Source of the DNA: Candidatus Woesearchaeota archaeon
GTDB lineage: Archaea > Nanobdellota > Nanobdellia > Woesearchaeales > JACPIF01
Direction: 5' to 3'
Assembly: GCA_016188215.1 (NCBI GenBank)
Contig: JACPIF010000007.1
Location: 1 to 36,658, forward strand
DNA: 36,658 nt
The notes below the pieces were generated by a model. It did no database searches, was not told the DNA's origin, and was given only the letters and a program-made list of their open reading frames with translations. The first letter of the stretch is position 1, and each line of letters starts with the position of its first letter. Below are positions 8,567 to 23,424 of the stretch, in pieces. The translations under genes were made by a program, and so were the position numbers.

Positions 8567-9082
8567 ATGGAGCCTAACTTGCTTGTCACCATTGAGCCTT
8601 CGCATGAAGGCCTGGCAAAACAGGAGATAGAAGCCCTGCTCAAGCCGTTAAAGAAGAAGCCAAAATACCTCAAATCTGGGATTAGCGGCCTGCTTAATAT
8701 CCGTATTGTCAATCCTAAAGGCATTGTAAAGAGCCTGGTTAAGGTATGCAAAAAAGACGCTTCTAAATTCAGGAAAACATACCATTGGACTCCAATAGAT
8801 AAATGGGTCAAGGCTGACCTTAAAGCGATGCAGAATGCAGCCAGGGCGCTTGGCAGGAAGATAAAGCCCAGTGAGACCTGGAAGATGAGGCTTGACAAGC
8901 GGCATTTTGATAAGATGCATACCACCGAGCTTATCCTTAAGCTGACCGAGGTGGTTGAGCGCTCTAATGTTGACCTGGAGAATCCAAAGAAGATCATCTC
9001 AGTGCAGATTATCGGCAGGAAAGCAGGCTTCTCCCTGTTGAATGCGGACGAGTTTCTGGATGTGAATAAGATCGCGCAATAG
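8567..9082 (+). CDS. THUMP-domain RNA-binding protein, Tan1-like
   Basis: The product is 171 residues. It begins NLLVTIEPSHEGLAKQEI, followed by a basic alpha/beta region and the segment RHFDKMHTTELILKLTEVV, typical of THUMP domains in archaeal Tan1/THUMPD1 relatives. Eukaryotic Tan1 helps Nat10/Kre33 acetylate cytidine 12 of tRNA-Ser and tRNA-Leu. There is no catalytic methyltransferase domain, so an RNA-binding adaptor role is likely. A TATA-like TTATTTAAG (8536-8544) lies about 26 bp before ATG 8567. Confidence 0.75.
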   Translation: MEPNLLVTIEPSHEGLAKQEIEALLKPLKKKPKYLKSGISGLLNIRIVNPKGIVKSLVKVCKKDASKFRKTYHWTPIDKWVKADLKAMQNAARALGRKIKPSETWKMRLDKRHFDKMHTTELILKLTEVVERSNVDLENPKKIISVQIIGRKAGFSLLNADEFLDVNKIAQ

Positions 9083-9677: not shown

Positions 9678-9768
9678 GGGCCTGTGGTCTAATCGCATGA
9701 CGTGACCTTCGCAAATCAGGAATGATCGACAGAGGTCAAGGCTCCGGGTTCAAATCCCGGCAGGTCCA
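9678..9768 (+). tRNA. tRNA-Ala(CGC) with an anticodon-loop intron
   Basis: Acceptor stem GGGCCTG/CAGGTCC contains G3-U70, the alanine identity pair. Anticodon stem TGACC/GGTCA encloses TTCGCA-[intron 9714-9732]-A, giving anticodon CGC (9710-9712). Variable loop is AGGCT, T-arm CCGGG-TTCAAAT-CCCGG, discriminator A at 9768; CCA is not encoded. The 19-base intron has an inner ATCA-GGAA-TGAT hairpin and a near-canonical BHB (three of four central pairs). The D-loop from this 5' end (TAATCGCAT) lacks the usual GG, so the true 5' end could be the upstream copy at 9628 with further introns. Product identity is firm; the exact 5' boundary is not. Confidence 0.75.
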
Positions 9769-17692: not shown

Positions 17693-17790
17693 GCCACGGT
17701 CGCATAATCCGGTAGTGCGGCAGCCTTGAGTTGCAAAGACTAGAGAGCTGCTCCCTTCGGGGATTCTCGGTTCAAATCCGAGCCGTGGCG
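17693..17790 (+). tRNA. tRNA-Ser(TGA) with a 15-base intron
   Basis: Acceptor GCCACGG/CCGTGGC with discriminator G, the serine type. D-arm GCA-TAATCCGGTAG-TGC with GG. Anticodon stem GCAGC/GCTGC encloses CTTGAG-[17731-17745]-A, giving anticodon TGA (17727-17729). Class II variable arm of 14 bases with CCC-TTC-GGG. T-arm CTCGG-TTCAAAT-CCGAG. The intron sits at 37/38, with three of four central BHB pairs and a weak inner helix. TATA TTTTATAAATT (17659-17669) precedes and five T (17791-17795) follow. CCA is not encoded. Confidence 0.9.
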
Positions 17791-23132: not shown

Positions 23133-23218
23133 GAGTTACCCTAGTTTACGGTATTATATAAAGTTAATCCAGAGTTTAAGAAAGTTATAAATATGATGCC
23201 TTATCATGCTCATTACGT

Positions 23219-23424
23219 GGGCCCGTAGTCTAGTGGCTCAGCCTTTTACGAAAACGCTGGCGAAAAGTGAGGGTTTCGCTTTCGCTCAAGCCCTCGGATT
23301 AAAAGGCTCCACACATGACGTCTCTTTGACGCAAATCCGCAGGATTACCTAAAATCCTTGGATTTTCAACATGGAGAAGGTCCCCAGTTCGAAAGGTGAA
23401 ACCTCGGAAGTCTGGGCGGGCCCA
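23219..23424 (+). tRNA. tRNA-Val(GAC) with three introns (D-loop, anticodon loop, T-loop)
   Basis: After removing introns 23239-23314 (76 bases), 23332-23371 (40) and 23394-23410 (17), the mature tRNA is 73 bases: acceptor GGGCCCG/CGGGCCC, D-arm GTC-TAGTGGCTAT-GAC, anticodon stem TCTCT/GGAGA with anticodon GAC (23328-23330), variable AGGTC, T-arm CCCAG-TTCGAAT-CTGGG, discriminator A. The first two introns have perfect BHB geometry: GTGG/CCAC with 3-base bulges CTC and ACA, and TTGA/TCAA with bulges CGC and CAT. The third has TTCG/CGGA (one G-T pair). TATA GTTATAAATA lies at about 23184-23193. CCA is not encoded. Confidence 0.93.

Follow-up and report, generated by a model that had tools for sequence, protein, structure and literature searches.

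A valine tRNA gene carrying three introns

Within the window, the whole stretch of 36,658 nt that was analysed, positions 23219-23424 of the plus strand hold a 206-nt tRNA-Val(GAC) gene composed of four exons (20, 17, 22 and 14 nt) and three introns, all on the same strand. Exon 1 (23219..23238) supplies nucleotides 1-20 of the mature tRNA, in agreement with intronless orthologs; exon 2 (23315..23331) supplies nucleotides 21-37, including the anticodon GAC; exon 3 (23372..23393) supplies nucleotides 38-59; and exon 4 (23411..23424) supplies nucleotides 60-73, with CCA not encoded. The introns measure 76 nt (intron 1, 23239..23314, in the D-loop at approximately 20/21), 40 nt (intron 2, 23332..23371, at the canonical position 37/38) and 17 nt (intron 3, 23394..23410, in the T-loop at 59/60). 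A TATA-like element, TTATAAATA (23185..23193, plus strand), lies 26-34 nt 5' of the gene and, from its sequence, represents a putative promoter. An earlier note on this DNA had described a single gene with introns of these lengths in the D-loop, anticodon loop and T-loop, and our analysis confirms that the three-intron arrangement is real.

In the canonical BHB motif, the central helix is formed by the 5' exon pairing with the 3' end of the intron. Reading and scoring of the exon borders identified the expected 4-bp central helix and two 3-nt border bulges, in strict form for introns 1 and 2. In intron 1 the central helix is GUGG/CCAC and the bulges are CU|C and AC|A; in intron 2 the helix is UUGA/UCAA and the bulges are CG|C and CA|U. 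The inner helix spans 6 bp or more in both. At intron 3, a central helix UUCG/CGGA with one G-U pair is flanked by bulges AA|A and AG|U; its inner helix (GGU/ACC) has one extra unpaired U opposite the 5' bulge AA|A, the 3' bulge being 3 nt, and the motif is thus slightly relaxed. Motif scoring therefore bears out the previous description of perfect geometry in two introns, including that of the D-loop, with a third intron at 59/60, and the motifs agree with the archaeal BHB type of splicing that had been proposed.

Removal of the three inserts yields a canonical 73-base tRNA, as the earlier note had claimed, which ARAGORN names tRNA-Val(gac) and in which all stems and all conserved residues are restored. 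The unspliced gene was called neither by ARAGORN, with its intron option on or off, nor by Rfam RF00005. A search allowing non-canonical introns, which had been recommended for this locus, was performed with our own BHB-aware finder, which scores the acceptor, T, D and anticodon arms while permitting BHB introns. The gene was recovered at a score of 25.8, compared with a best score of 18.1 among 200 dinucleotide-shuffled windows, and no finder score of 21 or above was obtained from the reversed sequence of loci. The precursor also folds better than 200 shuffled sequences (z -4.1).

The spliced sequence has full-length, uninterrupted blastn matches in relatives (best 92%), including an intronless tRNA-Val(GAC) identical at 67 of 73 positions without gaps (L295), and the exon boundaries are consistent with such intronless Val tRNAs. 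Partial intron sets were also found in the same Val gene of relatives, comprising the anticodon intron only (L310) or the T-loop intron only (L317), while a tRNA-Val(TAC) in a genome of another family (G084, L177) possesses introns of 15, 33 and 51 nt at the same three positions. The latter gene adjoins a tRNA-Gly(GCC) with a T-loop intron. A second intact tRNA-Val(GAC), which would have spoken against the original interpretation, was not found by blastn in the 91%-complete host genome. From its sequence, the locus probably represents a working tRNA-Val(GAC) gene and the only one of its genome; given the completeness of the assembly, a second tRNA-Val(GAC), or a second subunit of the splicing endonuclease EndA, could sit in the missing part.

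Introns among the other tRNA genes of the host genome

The host is a tiny, uncultured archaeon whose genome comprises 1.11 Mb in 13 contigs. The protein adjoining tRNA-Val(GAC), which from its sequence we take to be AMP phosphorylase-like, finds its main matches in Woesearchaeota and Nanoarchaeota genomes (50-63%); as these are also its closest named matches, the previously suggested DPANN host is supported. A scan for viral contigs gave no match. We surveyed one sample of stretches from this genome (~388 kb) plus targeted pieces, combining RF00005 matches, a T-loop pattern and the BHB-aware finder. The intron positions of the resulting 26 tRNA genes, an incomplete census, were listed as the earlier note had advised: approximately 19 of the 26 contain introns, and at least 11 contain introns at non-canonical positions.

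T-loop introns at 59/60 occur in Val(GAC), Leu(GAG), Leu(CAG), Gln(CTG), Lys and a Ser-like gene, the anticodon of the Lys gene being CTT by reading (CAA had initially been proposed by the finder). D-loop introns occur in Val(GAC), Phe(GAA), Leu(TAA) and Leu(CAA); introns at 10/11 mark a common site in Gln(TTG) (L018) and Gln(CTG) (L138); and an intron at 29/30 interrupts Thr(CGT). Three introns are also present in tRNA-Gln(CTG) (region of G000:C1:143362-143399), where they measure 20, 23 and 29 nt at 10/11, 37/38 and 59/60, and ARAGORN names the spliced product tRNA-Gln(ctg). A tRNA-Leu(TAA) with a 17-nt D-loop intron (L009, G000:C1:19564-19666) is reported by ARAGORN as Arg(cct) with an anticodon intron. 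When the T-loop pattern was relaxed, 12 real matches were obtained from the host genome versus 37 in the control, and only matches inside a readable tRNA were counted. The census pattern GGTTCRANNCC also produced several chance matches, and five candidates (L057, L058 and L063-L065) were rejected as tRNAs.

Closer inspection of the Ser-like gene (L137, region of G000:C1:94575) showed, besides its T-loop intron, an anticodon-loop insert of ~80 nt, perhaps representing two introns; the anticodon-loop inserts of this gene and of the Lys gene (L022) were given no definite intron assignment. The window itself also contains a tRNA-Ala(CGC) (9678-9768) and a tRNA-Ser(TGA) (17693-17790), with canonical 37/38 introns of 19 and 15 nt, respectively.

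T-loop introns are spread through the order

Across 288 genomes of the order, a pattern representing strict-BHB introns at 59/60 returned 825 matches, compared with 109 in a reversed control. At least one match was found in 232 of the 288 genomes (95 in the control), and three or more in 130 (1 in the control). Complete tRNAs of many isoacceptors with T-loop introns were confirmed at inspected places; for 60 further places, the finder identified approximately 27 full tRNAs with a T-loop intron, with chance matches among the remainder. Introns at 59/60 were also detected in other orders of the class (L180, L181, L185, L186, L188 and L251). The expansion, which the earlier note had called unusual for a DPANN-type archaeon, is therefore not confined to the host genome. 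Furthermore, T-loop introns are nearly identical among several tRNAs of one genome in two cases, G291 (contigs C29, C42 and C46) and G189. This sequence similarity suggests intron copying, as has been reported for Thermoproteales (PMC4033280), where several tRNAs of a single genome also share introns that are nearly identical.

The RtcB ligase gene is itself interrupted

The host encodes both EndA and the ligase RtcB. The RtcB gene (L117, G000:C11:8649-10018) appears as three separate matches, separated by two introns of 31 nt each (8722-8752 and 8830-8860) with strict BHB motifs. Upon their removal, one continuous frame runs through HWGYGFPIGG and GFDINCGMR, the latter containing the active-site Cys. 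The RtcB genes of two genomes, each of a different other family, carry a strict-BHB intron in the same Tyr codon (G037, L282, 32 nt; G032, L284, 29 nt). Most other RtcB genes examined are uninterrupted. We found no published RtcB introns, in a searched literature that mostly lacks subscription papers and preprints.

BHB introns in mRNA are known for cbf5 of Crenarchaeota (PMC2738675), which shares with the present case an archaeal protein-coding gene of RNA processing but differs in gene and lineage; here two introns also occur in one gene, alongside an alpha-type EndA. The interrupted RtcB thus adds an instance of this rare class in the very gene needed for splicing.

Other insertions were also observed among RtcB genes. 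In G046 (L283, G046:C60:2300-3950), a frame-shifting insertion with an in-frame TAG lies two codons 5' of the shared intron site, and no strict BHB was found in it. In-frame, intein-like insertions occur at the NCG motif in two further genes (L285, G057:C83; L286, G026:C87), in a small and a large form.

One alpha-type splicing endonuclease gene detected

Examination of the EndA subunit type, as the earlier note had proposed, identified one alpha-type gene in the host genome (G000:C11:158530; PF01974), closest to single alpha subunits and encoding 200 aa in an open frame of 204. A PF01974 search of the 91%-complete genome with a cut-off as lax as E 10 detected no second EndA gene; within that limit, the genome contains one short alpha gene. 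An EndA match was present in 39 of 40 relatives, nearly all with one gene in an open frame of 160-260 aa. Alignment to the alpha4 EndA of M. jannaschii (1a79) extends over 148 residues with a length difference of one residue (E 8e-30), and spans residues 53-200 with the N-terminal ~50 residues outside; the best structural match is the alpha subunit of N. equitans (3iey_A). Among 29 EndAs of the order, the catalytic residues are conserved and no insert of more than 2 residues relative to M. jannaschii occurs in the aligned region. The catalytic Tyr, His and Lys are present and a CSL/ASL-type loop insert is absent, with M. jannaschii 1a79 as the only reference. We also noted an order-specific, conserved loop, RG(V/I)KPGEDHA, beside the catalytic Tyr and His, with a conserved Lys; this loop might be relevant to substrate range.

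Previous work indicates that alpha4 and alpha'2 EndAs lacking a lineage-specific loop cut only canonical BHB motifs well, whereas the cutting of relaxed motifs depends on (alpha-beta)2 or epsilon2 enzymes and their special loops (PMC6379350, PMC4033280, PMC12397907). As most of the motifs identified here are strict, a narrow enzyme should suffice. In our reading, strict motifs at unusual positions need no broad-specificity enzyme, and intron 3 represents the real test: given that its motif is not fully strict, and given the literature on alpha4 enzymes (PMC6379350, PMC12397907), its cutting by the host EndA is a prediction. The earlier note had held that the introns imply an epsilon-like or heterotetrameric endonuclease, which the single alpha-type EndA of ~200 residues, showing no insert in the region aligned to the M. 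jannaschii alpha4 enzyme, leaves unsupported.

Proposed splicing route and its alternatives

Taken together, these observations make it highly probable, as judged from sequence, that the tRNA-Val(GAC), probably the only one of this genome, is matured by three-step BHB splicing involving an alpha-type EndA and RtcB, as part of an order-wide spread of introns. The 206-nt transcript, if expressed, would fold such that each intron forms a BHB at its exon borders. The single-gene alpha-type EndA, probably acting as an alpha4 homotetramer, would cut all three introns, in whichever order the cuts may be made, and RtcB would ligate the four exons to give a regular tRNA of 73 nt. Since the motif itself is strict, the D-loop and T-loop could have been colonised by introns with no need for a broad-specificity enzyme.

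The same three steps of cis-splicing might instead be performed by a broad-specificity endonuclease, either a heterotetramer whose beta subunit escaped detection or a fused enzyme of epsilon-like type. Such an enzyme would account for the slight relaxation of intron 3 and of some other motifs, and the distant relative Nanoarchaeum, which supplies the best structural match, has an (alpha-beta)2 enzyme. We nevertheless consider this unlikely, given that relatives, too, nearly all possess a single EndA gene. No epsilon-size or fused gene was found, the EndA of 200 aa being far from the ~390 aa of an epsilon2-type enzyme with three fused units, and none of the 29 aligned EndAs departs from the M. 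jannaschii alpha4 form by an insert of more than 2 residues in the aligned region. Also, PF01974 detected no separate structural beta gene, bearing in mind that beta subunits can be divergent and that 9% of the genome is missing.

It is considerably less probable that tRNA-Val(GAC) represents a decayed, unexpressed pseudogene with random insertions. While standard tRNA finders do miss the gene, each of its three insertions coincides precisely with a BHB motif, and a complete tRNA is regained once they are excised; the gene is also preceded by a TATA-like box, has no detected second copy, and shares its build with many other tRNAs of the genome and order. Finally, self-splicing introns, although group I introns are present in Woesearchaeota rRNA (PMC6125680), and a split or permuted gene were both rejected as scarcely credible, since introns of 17-76 nt are far too short for self-splicing, the window gave no group I or II match at E up to 1, and the four exons are collinear on one strand within 206 nt.

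Relation to known systems

Up to three BHB introns per tRNA, and the positions 20/21 and 59/60 listed for archaeal tRNA introns (PMC4090602), are known mostly from Crenarchaeota (PMC4090602, PMC8450103). Thermoproteales genes such as tRNA-Pro(UGG) of Pyrobaculum islandicum resemble the present gene in carrying up to three BHB introns at canonical and non-canonical positions (PMC4090602, PMC4033280). However, Thermoproteales fall within groups whose enzymes are heteromeric, of the (alpha-beta)2 kind, and possess many relaxed motifs, whereas here a DPANN archaeon combines a single alpha-type EndA with mostly strict motifs. In ARMAN/Micrarchaeum, whose genome is likewise small and of DPANN type, tRNA introns also occupy several positions and are cut by an epsilon2 EndA (PMC6379350, PMC12397907); that enzyme fuses three units and contains a loop specific to ARMAN, and no such gene was found in the Woesearchaeota-type host. 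A eukaryotic tRNA also carries three BHB introns, one per arm, those of the D and T arms being spliced out earlier than that of the anticodon, but at positions 12/13, 37/38 and 53/54 and with a eukaryotic-type endonuclease. Two elements are new as far as the searched literature shows: the RtcB introns, and the extension of such tRNA introns through an order of Woesearchaeota-type archaea that have a single alpha-type EndA.

By the accepted rule, non-canonical and multiple tRNA introns go together with endonucleases of broad specificity that carry special loops (PMC6379350, PMC4033280, PMC12397907). In this order, three-intron tRNAs and widespread T-loop introns coexist with what is apparently the simplest enzyme type, so that the rule becomes directly testable through one small protein. 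We lean towards the view that BHB introns have spread among the tRNA genes of a whole DPANN order, reaching even the RtcB mRNA, while the order kept only a plain alpha-type endonuclease. If true, a broad-specificity enzyme would be unnecessary for such an expansion as long as the motifs remain strict, and the splicing of the RtcB mRNA would require RtcB itself, with a feedback loop as a possible result. Standard finders also miss or misname such genes, as with the Leu(TAA) gene called Arg, and tRNA-based estimates of completeness and claims on codon decoding in these archaea are consequently biased.
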